Shown one piece after another: positions 29,620 through 34,710 of a stretch of 64,000 nucleotides of DNA. Each line of letters starts with the position of its first letter. Position 1 is the first letter of the stretch. Position numbers and translations under genes: made by a program. The notes below the pieces were generated by a model. The model was not told the origin of the DNA, did no database searches, and saw only the letters and a program-made list of their open reading frames with translations. The DNA lies in assembly GCA_040388375.1 (NCBI GenBank), contig JAZKBU010000003.1:496001-560000 (forward strand), written 5' to 3'. This stretch comes from Bacteroidota bacterium. GTDB lineage: Bacteria; Bacteroidota; Bacteroidia; UKL13-3.

Positions 29620-30462
29620 ATGACCAAAATTCCAACATACAATTTTCAAAAAATTGGCCGTAAAGAAAAACTGGTTGATTTAATTGTATGGGACGATCCT
29701 AATTTTTACCAGGTTGAAAAACCACATTGTCATGAATACCACGAAATATTTGTTATTTTAGAAGGCAATGGTTTACACCAGATAGATGGAACTATTTATC
29801 CATTACAAAACAAGTCTTTTCAAATAGTACCTCATTTTTTCTCACATCAGTTTACACGCGATGCAGAAAGCAAGGGATTTACCGTTGCTATTACCAATGT
29901 TTTTATTGAGCAATTAAGTCGTTTTGATAGTGATTCAAATTATAGAGCCTTGTTTGAAAAAGAACACATGATTCATTTATCAGCCAGCGAGTTTGAATCA
30001 TTTGATTTTTTCTTAAATGAAATTCAGAAACTGGAAATAAACGATGCATACAGACAAAATATATGTGCAGCCATTTTGCTTAAATTAATTCCTTTTATAG
30101 ACCATAACTTGGGTGTTGAAAACAACTTTTCTCGCTTGGTAAGAAAGGCATTGGAAAATAATTTCATGAAACGGCTATCAACCGAACAGTATGCTGCCAT
30201 GTTTAATTTAACAGCACTTAATTTAAACACAAAAGTTAAAAAAATTGCAGGTAAAACCATTATGCAAATGCAGGATGATTTACTGATAACAAATGTAAAA
30301 AGGTTATTATATAATACGGATATTGACTTAAAGGATATTGCTTTTGAGCATGGCTTTAATGACTACACCCACTTCTCCCATTTTTTCAAAAAACACACAG
30401 GTATATCGCCAATTGGTTATAGGAAAGGCATAAAAAATATACAAGAAATGAATAGGAATTGA
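29620..30462 (+). CDS. AraC family transcriptional regulator
   Basis: This 280-residue protein has an N-terminal cupin-like sensor domain (about 20-130, with HCHEYHEIFVILEGNG as the strand-loop-strand region) and a C-terminal pair of HTH motifs (about 180-272). The second reads DLKDIAFEHGFNDYTHFSHFFKKHTGISPIGYR in two parts, the AraC signature. It probably senses a small metabolite. The target cannot be read, but the heme-protein gene unit starts 52 bases downstream on the same strand, so neighbouring control is possible. It is 35 bases from lepB. Confidence 0.9.
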   Translation: MTKIPTYNFQKIGRKEKLVDLIVWDDPNFYQVEKPHCHEYHEIFVILEGNGLHQIDGTIYPLQNKSFQIVPHFFSHQFTRDAESKGFTVAITNVFIEQLSRFDSDSNYRALFEKEHMIHLSASEFESFDFFLNEIQKLEINDAYRQNICAAILLKLIPFIDHNLGVENNFSRLVRKALENNFMKRLSTEQYAAMFNLTALNLNTKVKKIAGKTIMQMQDDLLITNVKRLLYNTDIDLKDIAFEHGFNDYTHFSHFFKKHTGISPIGYRKGIKNIQEMNRN

Positions 30463-30514: not shown

Positions 30515-31342
30515 ATGAGCATGAGAAAAACTATAACCATTAGTATACTACTATTTTTTATAAGCGTTTGGAGTATTGAAATTCATTCTATGTCGTCAGG
30601 GGCATTAGCATTAACAGGTGCACCGCAAGAAAATAATTGCACCGGATGCCACCCCGGAGTGGCTAATAGCGATTCAAAAGGTGCTATTGTTATTACCATT
30701 GCAGGCAACCCAACTCATTATACCCCTGGACAAACTTACGATGTAAATGTAACGGTTAATTATCCGGGTAGAAATAGATTTGGTTTTGCACTTAACGTAA
30801 GAAAAAAAGGTGTTTTGTTTTTACCCGTTGGAGAGTTATTGGCAGAAAGCGGTTCTGGCGTTAGTGCAAATAGCTACGCTACCCATGAGTCAACCAGTAT
30901 AGATGCAAGCAATAATAAAACATGGACTTTCAAATGGACTGCTCCACAAACAATGGATACCGTTGTGTTTTATGCAGGTGGAATAGCCTCCAATAATAAT
31001 AAGCAAAATACAGGTGACCTGACTTATACATCATCTAAAACCTTATTACCGGGGGCAAAAACAACAGTTAATTCGTTAGATGTAATTAACTGGAAAAGTA
31101 TTTTTCCTAATCCGGTCCATAATGATGTTACATTGCAGTTTGATGTACAAACAAAAGATAACTACCAAATAACATTGTTAGACTTAAAAGGCGAACTAAA
31201 AGAAACCTTACTGCAACAAACATTATCGGTTGGTCAACAACAATTAAACTTAACATTTGCTAATGAATACCCGGCAGGTATTTACATCATCAGCGTATCA
31301 TCTTCAAATTGTAATACGTATAAAAAAATTATTATTTTATAA
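30515..31342 (+). CDS. Choice-of-anchor V (Reelin-like) heme-binding protein with T9SS type A domain
   Basis: A 275-residue exported protein. The signal peptide spans about 1-27. A single c-type heme site CTGCH (Cys42, Cys45, His46) starts the mature chain, followed by a Reelin/choice-of-anchor V beta-sandwich (about 50-185, with YPGRNRFGFALNV and FYAGGIASN). A T9SS type A sorting domain forms the C-terminus (IFPNPVHNDVTLQF, then YPAGIYIISVSS, about 195-275). The combination predicts a heme carried on a cell-surface protein. It opens a rightward seven-gene unit. A TAGTTTTG box at 30487-30494 may be its -7 element, but no -33 TTTG is seen. Confidence 0.85.
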   Translation: MSMRKTITISILLFFISVWSIEIHSMSSGALALTGAPQENNCTGCHPGVANSDSKGAIVITIAGNPTHYTPGQTYDVNVTVNYPGRNRFGFALNVRKKGVLFLPVGELLAESGSGVSANSYATHESTSIDASNNKTWTFKWTAPQTMDTVVFYAGGIASNNNKQNTGDLTYTSSKTLLPGAKTTVNSLDVINWKSIFPNPVHNDVTLQFDVQTKDNYQITLLDLKGELKETLLQQTLSVGQQQLNLTFANEYPAGIYIISVSSSNCNTYKKIIIL

Positions 31343-31404
31343 GGATTATTGATAAGTTTTATGTTATTCAATCAATAAAATAATATTTTTGAACATATTG
31401 CGGT

Positions 31405-31878
31405 GTGTTTAAAAAAGTGAATAGAACTATAAAAATTGTATTACCTGTTTTAATCCTGTTATTTATTGCTTGCTCCCATTATGATAGTTTGCAAAAAAAT
31501 GGGGTAGAAAGCAGTGCAAATAAAAGTAGCCACAATAGTGGTCAGGATTGTATGCGTTGCCATAACGATGACAAGCATGAAGCTTCATTTTATGCTTGGT
31601 GGAATGTAGCAGGAACAATTTTTAAAGGTTCAGGAGCATTGAACACAGAAGCACGCATTGAGCTTTGGAGTGAACCAAATGGTAAAGGATTTCGTATTTT
31701 AAGTTTAGCAACAGATAAAGAGGCTAATTTTTACAGCGAAAAAATTATAAAATTTAATGGCGGTTGTTACCCCATAGCTATCAGCGGAGTTGACACAGTA
31801 GCAATGAGTCAATCTTTTAATGGCGGTGGATGTAATAGTTGCCATGGAGTATCAACCGATAAAATAATAGTGAATTAG
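31405..31878 (+). CDS. Diheme c-type lipoprotein
   Basis: A 157-residue protein starting at GTG. It has a lipobox signal (LLFIAC, Cys23) and two CxxCH heme sites, CMRCH (Cys49, Cys52, His53) and CNSCH (Cys143, Cys146, His147). Between them is a beta domain like carboxypeptidase-regulatory domains (WWNVAGTIFKGSG, RIELWSEPNGKG, SLATDKEANFYSE). It would sit in the periplasm or outer membrane as an electron carrier. The family is not named that I know. It is second in the rightward unit and is followed by two smaller heme lipoproteins after 6 bases. No Met ligands are obvious, so heme coordination may be His/His or pentacoordinate. Confidence 0.8.
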   Translation: MFKKVNRTIKIVLPVLILLFIACSHYDSLQKNGVESSANKSSHNSGQDCMRCHNDDKHEASFYAWWNVAGTIFKGSGALNTEARIELWSEPNGKGFRILSLATDKEANFYSEKIIKFNGGCYPIAISGVDTVAMSQSFNGGGCNSCHGVSTDKIIVN

Positions 31879-31884
31879 ATATAT

Positions 31885-32235
31885 ATGAAAAAAATAATAC
31901 TATCAGGCGTCCTGCTCAGTTTTGTAGTTATATCAGGGTGTTATTTTGATAACAAAGAAGAGTTATACCCGAACCTTAATTCCGATTGTAACGCATCCTT
32001 AACATACAATACCGGAATTAAAACCATAATTGATAATAATTGCAGTACTTCAAATTGTCATGTTGCAGGAGGAACGGCTATTGATTTGTCGACCTATACA
32101 TTGGTGAAAAATAATGCATCAAAAATTACCGACAGGGCTATTACACAAAAAAATATGCCGGCACCGTCAGGCATGTCAAGTTGTAATATTACAAAACTTG
32201 ATAACTGGATAAAAGCAGGAATGCCCGAAAATTAG
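31885..32235 (+). CDS. Small c-type cytochrome-like lipoprotein with CX4CH site (copy 1)
   Basis: A 116-residue lipoprotein (lipobox VISGC, Cys19). It shows the pattern IIDNNCSTSNCHVAGG, a CX4CH heme site (Cys53, Cys58, His59) in place of the usual CX2CH, and NMPAPSGM (Met91, Met97) as a likely axial Met. The C-terminal helix LDNWIKAGMPE is typical of planctomycete-type cytochrome c domains. Two extra Cys (Cys35 and Cys100) may form a disulfide. It is clearly related to the next gene, from which it is 4 bases away, so the pair arose by tandem duplication. Heme attachment is inferred from the motif only. Confidence 0.8.
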   Translation: MKKIILSGVLLSFVVISGCYFDNKEELYPNLNSDCNASLTYNTGIKTIIDNNCSTSNCHVAGGTAIDLSTYTLVKNNASKITDRAITQKNMPAPSGMSSCNITKLDNWIKAGMPEN

Positions 32236-32239
32236 TGCT

Positions 32240-32584
32240 ATGAAAAGAGTATTTGCTTTAATGCTTATATGCAGTATAGTTGTTGCCGTTAGCTGCCAAC
32301 ATAAAAAGGAAGAACAGCAAATAGTAAACGCAACAGATAGTTGCAATGCCGCTTTAACCTATACAGGGGGTATAAAAACATTGGTTGATGCCAATTGTGC
32401 ATACAGTGGTTGCCATGTAGTAGGAACGGGGGCTGGCGATTTAACTACCTATGAGTTGTTATCGTCAAAAGCAAGTGAAATAAATACTAGGGTTGTTCTC
32501 GTTAAAAATATGCCGCCATCAAGCATGTCGGATTGTAATATATCAAAATTAGATAATTGGATAAAGGCAGGAATGCCGGAATAA
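32240..32584 (+). CDS. Small c-type cytochrome-like lipoprotein with CX4CH site (copy 2)
   Basis: A 114-residue paralogue of the preceding gene. It has a lipobox (AVSC, Cys19), the CX4CH site DANCAYSGCH (Cys53, Cys58, His59), KNMPPSSM (Met91, Met96) and the closing helix LDNWIKAGMPE. The Cys pair outside the heme site (Cys35, Cys99) is kept. The mature parts of the two proteins align without large gaps, while the signal peptides and the linker differ. It is followed after 12 bases by the DUF5777 barrel gene, suggesting that the heme lipoproteins and the barrel act together. Confidence 0.8.
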   Translation: MKRVFALMLICSIVVAVSCQHKKEEQQIVNATDSCNAALTYTGGIKTLVDANCAYSGCHVVGTGAGDLTTYELLSSKASEINTRVVLVKNMPPSSMSDCNISKLDNWIKAGMPE

Positions 32585-32596
32585 AATAGAAATAAA

Positions 32597-33502
32597 ATGA
32601 AAAAAAACATACTTCTTGTAACGCTGTTGTTAGCTGTAAATTTTGTTTGGGCTCAAGATGATTTATTGGATTTGTTAAAAGATGAAAATACAAAAGCTAC
32701 ACCAGTATTAGCTACTTTTAAAGGCACCAGGATTATCACAGGCCAAAGCAATGAGAATATTTCAAAAAAGCATTTAAACTTTTTGATTTTACATCGTTTT
32801 GGTGAATTAAAAGATGATGCCTGGTATTATAGTTTTTTAGGTTTAGACGGTGCTTCTGTTCGTTTAGCTTTTGACTATGGTATTACCGATAAATTAATGA
32901 TAGGAGCAGGACGCAGTACAGTTGGAAAGGTGTATGATGGCAGTGTTAAATACAAATTGGCACAGCAAACTTCGGGTGGCAAAAAAAACTTTCCATTAGC
33001 TATTTCATATTATGGTAATATGGCTATTAAAACAGAAACGTTTACAAACACAGCAATCAACAATTATTTCTCTTCCCGTTTAACTTTCAGTAACCAGTTA
33101 ATCATTGCACGCAAAGTAAATAATGCTGTTTCATTGCAATTAACACCCACTATGGTACATAGAAATTTAGTAGAGAAAAAGGCATACCCGAATACAGTTT
33201 TTGCGCTAGGTTTAGGCGGCTCGTTTAAATTAACACGCAGTACCCGTTTTAATATAGAATATTATCCCCGTTTAAACGGAAGAGACGAAAAATCAGAATC
33301 AGGACAAGACTATACTGATTATTTGGCTGTTGGTTTTGATATAGAAACAGGTGGGCACGTTTTTCAATTAATGCTAAGTAACTCCACTTACATGTACGAG
33401 CAGGGTTTTGTTACACAAACCACAGGCAAATGGGGCGATTTTGGGGTAAGAATAGGCTTTAACCTATCCCGTACCTTTTCGTTTGATAAAGAGCACAGGT
33501 AG
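32597..33502 (+). CDS. DUF5777 family beta-barrel protein
   Basis: A 301-residue outer-membrane protein. The signal peptide ends in NFVWAQ (about 20). The mature N-terminus holds the family block VLATFKGTRIITGQSNENISKKHLNFLILHRFG (split over about 36-68), followed by YYSFLGLDGASVRLAFDYGITDKLMIGAGRS (about 78-108), both typical of DUF5777. The remainder is amphipathic strands ending FGVRIGFNLSRTFSF. DUF5777 barrels often lie beside cytochrome c and YceI genes in Bacteroidota, which fits here. The transported or docked partner is unknown. A porin for electron transfer or small ions is a guess. Confidence 0.85.
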   Translation: MKKNILLVTLLLAVNFVWAQDDLLDLLKDENTKATPVLATFKGTRIITGQSNENISKKHLNFLILHRFGELKDDAWYYSFLGLDGASVRLAFDYGITDKLMIGAGRSTVGKVYDGSVKYKLAQQTSGGKKNFPLAISYYGNMAIKTETFTNTAINNYFSSRLTFSNQLIIARKVNNAVSLQLTPTMVHRNLVEKKAYPNTVFALGLGGSFKLTRSTRFNIEYYPRLNGRDEKSESGQDYTDYLAVGFDIETGGHVFQLMLSNSTYMYEQGFVTQTTGKWGDFGVRIGFNLSRTFSFDKEHR

Positions 33503-33523
33503 CACGTATAAATGTTATAGCTA

Positions 33524-34036
33524 GTGAAACGCTTACTATTATATGGATTAGGCTTATTAGTACTACTAAGTTTTTTATTAGTAAAAAATAATAAAACGAT
33601 ACCTCAAGGTATAGTCATTGATAAAATAGTAGTAATTAAATCGCAACATAAGATGTACGTTTATAGTAATAACGAATTACTAAAAACATATAAAATTGCT
33701 TTTGGCAGGGGAGGAGACGGAGCCAAAGAATATGAAGGTGATAAAAAAACACCCGAAGGCGTTTATTTTATCAATGCCAAAAATAAAGACAGTGGCTACC
33801 ATAACAATTTAGGTATATCGTATCCAAACAAAGCAGATGTAGAGCGTTGCCAAAAATTGAATAAACCAACGGGTGGAGATATAAAAATACACGGTTTAAA
33901 AAATGGTTTTGGCTTTATAGGAAGTGTGCATCACTTGTTTGACTGGACATTAGGTTGTATAGCCTTAACCAATGATGAAGTAGATGAACTAAGCCTACAT
34001 ACACCCATTGGCACTATTATTGAAATAAAACATTAA
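33524..34036 (+). CDS. L,D-transpeptidase family protein
   Basis: A 170-residue protein starting at GTG. It has one N-terminal membrane helix (about 5-22) and a YkuD domain (about 33-168). The catalytic motif is HGLKNGFGFIGSVHHLFDWTLGC in two parts: His123, His136/137 and Cys145, followed by IALTNDEVDEL. This places it in the ErfK/YnhG branch, which makes 3-3 peptidoglycan cross-links or attaches proteins to peptidoglycan in the periplasm. Its place inside the heme-protein unit suggests a wall-anchoring job, but that is inference. It starts 21 bases after the DUF5777 stop. Confidence 0.87.
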   Translation: MKRLLLYGLGLLVLLSFLLVKNNKTIPQGIVIDKIVVIKSQHKMYVYSNNELLKTYKIAFGRGGDGAKEYEGDKKTPEGVYFINAKNKDSGYHNNLGISYPNKADVERCQKLNKPTGGDIKIHGLKNGFGFIGSVHHLFDWTLGCIALTNDEVDELSLHTPIGTIIEIKH

Positions 34037-34048
34037 AATATAAAACGT

Positions 34049-34600
34049 ATGAAAAAAATAATTTTAACCATTACCGCTACAGCCGCTATTGCTTTAGCCA
34101 ATTTAACGGCACAACCACTTTACAAAGCCAGTAATGCAGAGGTAAGTTTCTTCTCAAGCACCCCGGCTGAGAATATAGATGCTAAAACAGTAAGCGCTAC
34201 TACTTTGATTAATGTAAAAACAAAAGATATCGCATTTGTTATTCAAAACATATCATTTCAGTTTCCTAATAAACTAATGCAGGAACACTTTAACGAAAAG
34301 TATATGGAAAGCGAAAAATTTCCATTAAGCCAGTTTAGAGGAACCGTGCAGGAGAATATAGATTTAACCAAACCCGGAACTTACCATGTAACCGTAAAAG
34401 GAAAACTAAATATACATGGGGTAGAGCAGGAGAGAATCATAACAGGTACCATAACAGTACATGAGGGTAAAATAGAACTGGTAAGTAACTTTAAAGTTAA
34501 AGTAGCCGACCATAAAATAGAAATTCCTAAATTAGTATTGGCTAAAATAGCTGAAGAGCTAGATGTAAAAGTAATGGCCATATTGGTACCTAAACAGTAA
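34049..34600 (+). CDS. YceI family protein
   Basis: A 183-residue periplasmic protein with a signal peptide ending ANLTAQ (about 22). The lipocalin-like YceI fold follows: VSFFSSTPAENIDAKT (about 33-48), FVIQNISFQFPNKLMQEHFNEKYMESEKFP in two parts (about 67-96), then YHVTVKGKLNIHGVEQERIITGTI (about 112-135). YceI proteins bind polyisoprenoid or other hydrophobic molecules and are often linked to cytochrome b561 or respiration. It closes the heme-protein unit, 12 bases after the L,D-transpeptidase gene and before a terminator. Confidence 0.9.
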   Translation: MKKIILTITATAAIALANLTAQPLYKASNAEVSFFSSTPAENIDAKTVSATTLINVKTKDIAFVIQNISFQFPNKLMQEHFNEKYMESEKFPLSQFRGTVQENIDLTKPGTYHVTVKGKLNIHGVEQERIITGTITVHEGKIELVSNFKVKVADHKIEIPKLVLAKIAEELDVKVMAILVPKQ

Positions 34601-34616
34601 TTAATTTAATCTCAAT

Positions 34617-34652
34617 AAAAAATGCAGCTTGTTGAACAATAAGCTGCATTTT
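34617..34652 (+). terminator. Terminator of the heme-protein unit
   Basis: The 13-14-base stem AAAAAATGCAGCTT pairs with AAGCTGCATTTTTT around a 10-base loop, 16 bases after the YceI stop. Confidence 0.85.
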
Positions 34653-34710
34653 TTATTTAGTAATTTTTAAATTTTAGTTTCCATTAAAACACATATTCTT
34701 GTTTTAAATT

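Follow-up and report, generated by a model that had tools for sequence, protein, structure and literature searches.

The stretch of DNA analysed here, called the window below, comprises 64,000 nucleotides of a Bacteroidota genome (assembly GCA_040388375.1, contig JAZKBU010000003.1, positions 496,001 to 560,000), and the subject of this work is a gene cluster at positions 30515-34600 that encodes an outer-membrane beta-barrel of the family DUF5777 together with putative electron carriers. Seven open reading frames (ORFs) follow each other on the plus strand, with successive gaps of 62, 6, 4, 12, 21 and 12 bases. The first (30515..31342) encodes a choice-of-anchor V or Reeler protein with a CTGCH motif (NCBIfam 8.6e-32) and a tail for the type IX secretion system (T9SS); the second (31405..31878) encodes a dihaem lipoprotein-like protein with the motifs CMRCH and CNSCH, for which no Pfam or NCBIfam family scored over cut-off. 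Two small monohaem c-type lipoproteins follow (31885..32235 and 32240..32584), each with a CX4CH motif and neither with a Pfam match; they are tandem paralogues, 51% identical across 115 amino acids (aa). The DUF5777 gene (PF19089; 32597..33502; 5.5e-89) scored 298.1 bits against the Pfam cut-off of 23.1, with profile positions 1-247 of 247 aligned. It is followed by a YkuD L,D-transpeptidase (33524..34036; 1.2e-19, 71.8 bits against 23.4) and a lipocalin-like YceI protein (PF04264; 34049..34600; 7e-11, 43.1 bits against 23.7). ORFs, Pfam and NCBIfam confirmed the seven rightward, closely spaced genes and the families named in the original prediction, and its five haem sites are present as five haem-type motifs, with a maximum of two per haem protein. 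The comparisons below establish as core a cytochrome c-type lipoprotein (or other carrier), the DUF5777 barrel and YceI, which make up a real, conserved redox module; in the window both small lipoproteins are of the core type.

DUF5777 was present in 134 of the 149 genomes sampled from the window's class and in 82 of 198 genomes of a phylum sample, and in none of 14 control genomes. Its surroundings were compared in several sets of loci. The class sample consisted of 100 stretches around DUF5777, taken mostly from the highest among the matches listed in the window's class. The named relatives were the best 80 of 586, chosen for their resemblance to the barrel of the window and therefore a biased sample. 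One stretch was omitted as a 2-kilobase (kb) duplicate (L209), and four (L098, L137, L168, L221) as being without a called DUF5777 gene. Flanks of at least 2.5 kb were required on both sides, by which 2 of 97 class-sample loci and 18 of 79 named loci were dropped, leaving 95 and 61. Genes were scored as near when they lay on the same strand within 2.5 kb of DUF5777, and as far when they lay beyond 3.5 kb. From outside the class, 20 loci were selected from the phylum sample, with DUF5777 called in 19. In the pooled set, 26 of 213 rows were dropped for short flanks, leaving 187, and the removal of three identical domains gave a tree of 184 rows. The ORFs of 180 loci were searched with profiles built from the proteins of the window and from three neighbours. 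Some genomes contributed two or three loci (e.g., G014, G110) and others occurred in both locus sets (L094/L123, L049/L126, L043/L113), which makes the pooled count (187 rows) redundant.

The linkage read from these sequences fell off sharply with distance. Of the 95 class-sample loci, 73 had a cytochrome of the window's family near DUF5777, another 2 had a Rieske protein there, and YceI was near in 66; beyond 3.5 kb the corresponding counts were 1, 0 and 4. Indeed, the direct same-strand neighbour of DUF5777 was a cytochrome or YceI gene in 90 of these 95 loci. Among the 61 named loci, cytochrome was near in 48, Rieske in 12 (one locus has both) and YceI in 51, and the far flanks held them in 4, 3 and 5. 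The 19 readable loci outside the class had a cytochrome in 13, a Rieske protein in 1, a fusion in 1 and YceI in 16, with the strict adjacent order cytochrome, YceI, DUF5777 in 9. The YceI counts are probably low, as L201, scored as lacking YceI, shows a YceI-like protein by eye. The clustering of cytochrome, YceI and DUF5777 exceeds chance, and the barrel-linked envelope redox unit proposed earlier for the window has held up, since cytochrome and YceI accompany DUF5777 both in and outside the class, and cytochrome-barrel fusions exist. We also considered that these might be loosely clustered envelope genes with no joint function. Gene content is variable enough to suggest it, with 17 changes in YceI presence on the quick 184-row DUF5777 tree and 20 of 95 loci without a recognised carrier; however, the sharp fall-off, the fusions, the replacement of the cytochrome by Rieske proteins in the same slot and the persistence of the arrangement outside the class make this very unlikely.

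The L,D-transpeptidase does not share in the clustering. The profile search found it in 3 of the 180 loci, namely the window, L032 and L033, while the close relative L034 was without it; near DUF5777 it occurred in none of the 95 class-sample loci and in 2 of the 61 named ones. It is a probable recent passenger or bystander outside the module, and its inclusion as a wall-modifying component is not supported. The Reeler-type protein was found in 15 of the 180 loci and homologues of the dihaem protein, which is lineage-specific, in 19 (near DUF5777 in 9 and 5 of the 95 class-sample loci, respectively). The Reeler count used the N-terminal part of the profile only, as the full-length count of 59 was inflated by the T9SS tail. 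Haem-bearing Reeler relatives lay near DUF5777 in 15 of the 187 pooled rows, 14 of which also had a core-family cytochrome, and at L200 the dihaem protein was the sole recognised redox partner of DUF5777. Both haem proteins may be regarded as accessory, optional partners. The original prediction combined the seven genes into a single unit, in which haem proteins form a chain on the cell surface together with a barrel and a wall cross-linker. The gene order and spacing in the window are consistent with that, as are the T9SS tail of the Reeler protein and an acidic segment in the small cytochromes that resembles export signals. However, the co-occurrence counts over the 180 loci led us to reject a seven-gene unit, as hardly any of them has the transpeptidase; the dihaem and Reeler proteins are confined to a minority. 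A surface haem chain is also not supported, given a small barrel with 12 predicted strands, a single family haem motif in 42 of the 73 cytochrome-bearing class-sample loci, and a haem domain that precedes strand 1 where it is fused to the barrel. As a whole, this reading seems highly improbable.

Small members of the cytochrome family were near DUF5777 in 67 of the 95 class-sample loci. Larger members (>165 aa), many of which combine two motifs with a PSCyt1 domain, accompany or replace them, so that 45 loci had small cytochromes only, 22 small and large, and 6 large only. A large copy, at L045, matched PSCyt1 with 44.6 bits against a cut-off of 22, and a small one, at L069, reached 22.8 bits for Cytochrome_CBB3, below the cut-off of 27; the one small cytochrome queried by sequence against solved structures gave no convincing relative. 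All 129 distinct small cytochromes carried C-x(2-5)-C-H at one aligned site, 127 of them had a Met-Pro, and one Trp column was 99% conserved. The spacing within the haem motif was n=2 in 76, n=3 in 7, n=4 in 42 and n=5 in 4, and it differed even between small cytochromes 61-63% identical. Since CX4CH alternates with CX2CH, CX3CH and CX5CH at the same site with the Met-Pro kept, CX4CH is indirectly supported as a probable haem-attachment site. The window's genome has two COX1 matches and two Cytochrom_C_asm matches, which makes c-type haem maturation plausible, and we infer that the carriers are loaded with haem. The range from CX2CH to CX5CH (e.g., L038:9660-9995, L151:7878-8279) constitutes a natural test of haem-attachment tolerance.

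A Rieske (PF00355) lipoprotein occupies the cytochrome slot in Dyadobacter, Runella and others, with 38.9 (L078), 32.4 (L084) and 27.1 bits (L125) against a cut-off of 20.3. In L227, from another class, the Rieske protein was recognised by its own profile and by the cluster motif read by eye. A 66-row tree was computed under a richer model with 14 Rieske rows, 4 fusions, 2 rows with other haem proteins, 45 randomly drawn cytochrome rows and the window. Thirteen Rieske rows formed one clade (Shimodaira-Hasegawa-like approximate likelihood ratio test 99) nested among the cytochrome rows, and L227 stood apart on a long branch. The distribution of Rieske required four changes on the fast 184-row tree and two on the 66-row tree, so we claim that the Rieske protein probably replaced the cytochrome at least twice, with the second replacement resting on the long branch of L227. 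A search of open PubMed Central (PMC) full text for YceI together with Rieske returned only papers unrelated by title.

In one distant order the carrier is joined to the barrel. The L231 protein consists of 411 aa, with an N-terminal CX4CH domain followed by the DUF5777 barrel, and such fusions occurred in 7 of 60 genomes of the order, the other six being 52-57% identical to L231. All seven had CX4CH, a Met-Pro 65 residues on and DUF5777 in the same frame; the fusion at L249 matched Cytochrom_C with 21.5 bits against the Pfam cut-off of 21.3. Unfused barrels also occur in this clade, namely L250, which is an additional copy in a genome that also has a fusion, and the related L240 and L251. Together with the Rieske substitution, the fusion argues that the electron carrier is tied to the barrel. 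The long DUF5777 frames of L137 and L168 were tried as further fusions and rejected, having no haem motif. The cluster around one fusion (L249:1470-7137) also holds MbnP, a CCP_MauG dihaem peroxidase, a molybdopterin oxidoreductase and a further CX4CH lipoprotein.

The closest known architecture is that of Cyc2, in which, according to the available text of PMC8406198, one c-type haem domain is N-terminal to an outer-membrane barrel and the haem should sit at the periplasmic mouth; 16 strands are predicted for the barrel, and CXXCH is accompanied by an upstream AXPXFAR[QK][TY] motif. The likeness, a monohaem domain N-terminal to a barrel, is seen only in the seven fusion relatives. In the window, by contrast, carrier and barrel are separate genes, as they usually are elsewhere, and the modelled barrel of the window's protein has 12 strands; across the cytochrome family the motif is CX2-5CH instead of CXXCH, YceI is commonly encoded alongside, and Rieske can substitute. 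The Cyc2 motif, searched for as P.FAR[QK][TY], turned up in none of the seven fusions and in 1 of 8,965 sequences. The module may share a Cyc2-like layout but is not Cyc2, since the fusions lack the Cyc2 motif and the barrel of the window has fewer strands. A bolder proposal would see in DUF5777 and the small haem lipoprotein an analogue of Cyc2 that consists of two pieces and spans the phylum, forming a minimal outer-membrane electron conduit in which quinol on YceI supplies electrons and Rieske can replace haem. We regard this as doubtful; if true, outer-membrane electron exchange would be ordinary in most oxygen-respiring Bacteroidia, beyond the specialist metal bacteria.

The AlphaFold2 model of the window's DUF5777 protein (predicted local distance difference test, pLDDT, 90.2) has 12 strands. 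The highest VIA-align Z scores were obtained with FapF (18.0, over 209 residues at 3.7 Å), KdgM (17.7), NanC (16.9) and COG4313 (16.3), and proximity to COG4313, FadL and TodX was seen at Z of about 12-16. No large porin-cytochrome barrel was among the 50 structure matches listed for DUF5777, and a search of solved structures by sequence found no relative. MtrCAB and MtoAB, as described in the available part of PMC8406198, have a 26-strand barrel enclosing a decahaem cytochrome. They resemble the module in that an outer-membrane barrel is encoded alongside cytochromes, but differ from its 12 strands and one to few haem motifs; going by the model, the DUF5777 barrel would be small for an MtrAB-type haem wire. 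The fold invites another explanation, that of a transporter for hydrophobic compounds of the quinone, carotenoid or flexirubin type, in which the barrel would form the pore, YceI would carry the cargo through the periplasm, and the cytochrome or Rieske protein would modify or gate it. The nearness of the barrel to COG4313, FadL and TodX points that way, as do YceI relatives titled polyisoprenoid-binding; however, FapF and the sugar porins score equal or higher Z, so the fold indicates no particular cargo. An electron carrier fused to a pore would also, to our knowledge, be unusual for a transporter, and we give this explanation little credence.

The AlphaFold2 model of the window's YceI (pLDDT 92.1) matched YceI structures in Foldseek, with a best E-value of 4.6e-11; they included 2x32/2x34, a polyisoprenoid-binding domain from Saccharophagus, and BcnA. 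YceI proteins have been connected with redox partners before. A gene pair of BcnA (YceI) and LcoA (cytochrome b561) has a lipid-peroxidation phenotype according to the accessible portion of PMC9113575. As in the module, a YceI protein is linked genetically with a redox protein, but there the partner is a membrane b-type cytochrome, with no barrel described in that portion, whereas here it is a c-type or Rieske lipoprotein. Similarly, Cbp2D of Cellvibrio combines a YceI-like X158 domain and a c-type X183 domain in one protein, although it is, in the accessible text of PMC12542752, a multidomain cellulose-binding protein linked to a lytic polysaccharide monooxygenase. From the first of these comes a further alternative, a membrane antioxidant as proposed for BcnA-LcoA: YceI would take lipid peroxyl radicals or oxidised quinone, the carrier would re-reduce them, and the barrel would remove or expose oxidised lipid. 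The shared YceI fold, with BcnA among the Foldseek matches, and the phenotype of the published YceI-cytochrome pair are consistent with it. So is the association of DUF5777 with COX1 among the sampled genomes: it occurred in 133 of the 144 that have a COX1 match and in 1 of the 5 that have none (Fisher p 3e-4). This contrast, however, depends on five genomes, of which three belong to one family and the fifth is 69% complete. The cytochrome-barrel fusions, moreover, tie the carrier to the barrel and not to YceI. We consider the antioxidant role unlikely.

We favour, tentatively, an outer-membrane redox module of Bacteroidota composed of a barrel, an exchangeable electron carrier and a YceI lipid carrier, a reading that we regard as close to evenly poised between right and wrong. 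In it, a small membrane-anchored carrier would dock at or into the periplasmic mouth of the DUF5777 barrel. The carrier would be a His-Met cytochrome c, often with a larger two-haem relative, or a Rieske [2Fe-2S] protein in some lineages, or a barrel-fused domain in one distant clade. Periplasmic YceI would carry a quinone-like or other isoprenoid lipid (ligand binding is reported for relatives only), and electrons would pass singly between this lipid and the carrier, in a direction that could be either, the carrier reducing or oxidising a small substrate that arrives through the barrel. The simplest form would be a one-haem, Cyc2-like arrangement and not a decahaem wire. The module is widespread and apparently undescribed: no paper naming DUF5777 was found in open PMC full text, and a freshwater survey reports putative porin-cytochrome genes in Bacteroidetes, without naming the module's families in the available part of its text (PMC6344600). 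Barrel, exchangeable carrier and lipid carrier would represent a common, unstudied redox route in the outer membrane of bacteria from a major phylum, made testable by the fusion proteins and the Rieske swap.

Several observations weigh against this reading. Neither cytochrome nor Rieske was near DUF5777 in 20 of the 95 class-sample loci; YceI and a carrier occurred together in only 51, and 29 lacked YceI. A recognised redox partner was missing from 18 of the 187 pooled rows, 15 of which still had YceI. Among the 73 cytochrome-bearing class-sample loci, 42 had one family haem motif and 31 carried two to six, so the one-haem form is a minimum and not the rule. YceI lay within 2.5 kb in none of the seven fusion rows (three with short flanks), so it is not indispensable. 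Finally, there is the question of the membrane face, for which lipoboxes were identified by pattern and signal regions by eye. Of 105 small cytochromes with a lipobox-like site, 51 continued with C[YF][YF]D, and an acidic run often came next; of the window copies one reads CYFD and the other CQHK. Under a stricter lipobox, at least three acidic residues at +2 to +8 were counted in 51 of 80 small cytochromes versus 9 of 110 among the other lipoproteins encoded at these loci. Surface-export signals described in the literature have acidic residues in a comparable position (PMC5080379, available text), and the resemblance favours the cell surface, in conflict with a periplasmic position. The fused haem domain, on the other hand, precedes strand 1, which would place it at the periplasmic mouth given standard porin topology (PMC8406198, available text). 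As judged from these sequence features, the acidic signal thus favours the surface as the carrier's side and the fusion favours the periplasmic mouth. Speaking for the proposed reading, the most conserved DUF5777 turn, with GG at 252-253 in DIETGGH, is short and would be periplasmic by the usual rule.

Further features were noted around the module. A terminator-like hairpin follows YceI on the plus strand (34614..34657; 20 stem pairs, 4 of them GC, a loop of 4 and a T run), as a consensus match only; the scan gave 4 terminator-like sites versus 3.0 expected from shuffling, so only this 20-pair stem is notable. An AraC-type regulator lies directly upstream of the cluster (29620-30462) and likewise upstream in the three closest relatives, L032-L034. 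LytTR-type response regulator genes were near the module in some loci (L097, L100, L107), with near versus far counts of 1 versus 5 of 95 and 7 versus 7 of 61, so the proximity is probably due to chance. At L151:8696-10324, a protein that has a T9SS tail, a CX4CH domain at its N terminus and a copper monooxygenase C-terminal match below cut-off adjoins two cytochromes and DUF5777. Two CXXCH motifs are found in a protein of roughly 336-368 aa that recurs near DUF5777 (L128:6608-7615, L148:9146-10249, L155:5964-6983, L189:7756-8799, L197:7848-8879), and the L197 copy, the sole one run against Pfam, has a cbb3-type domain. An OB-fold (tRNA_anti-like) protein (e.g., L069:6932-7327) was near the module in 15 of the 95 and 21 of the 61 loci, and in the far flanks of neither set.

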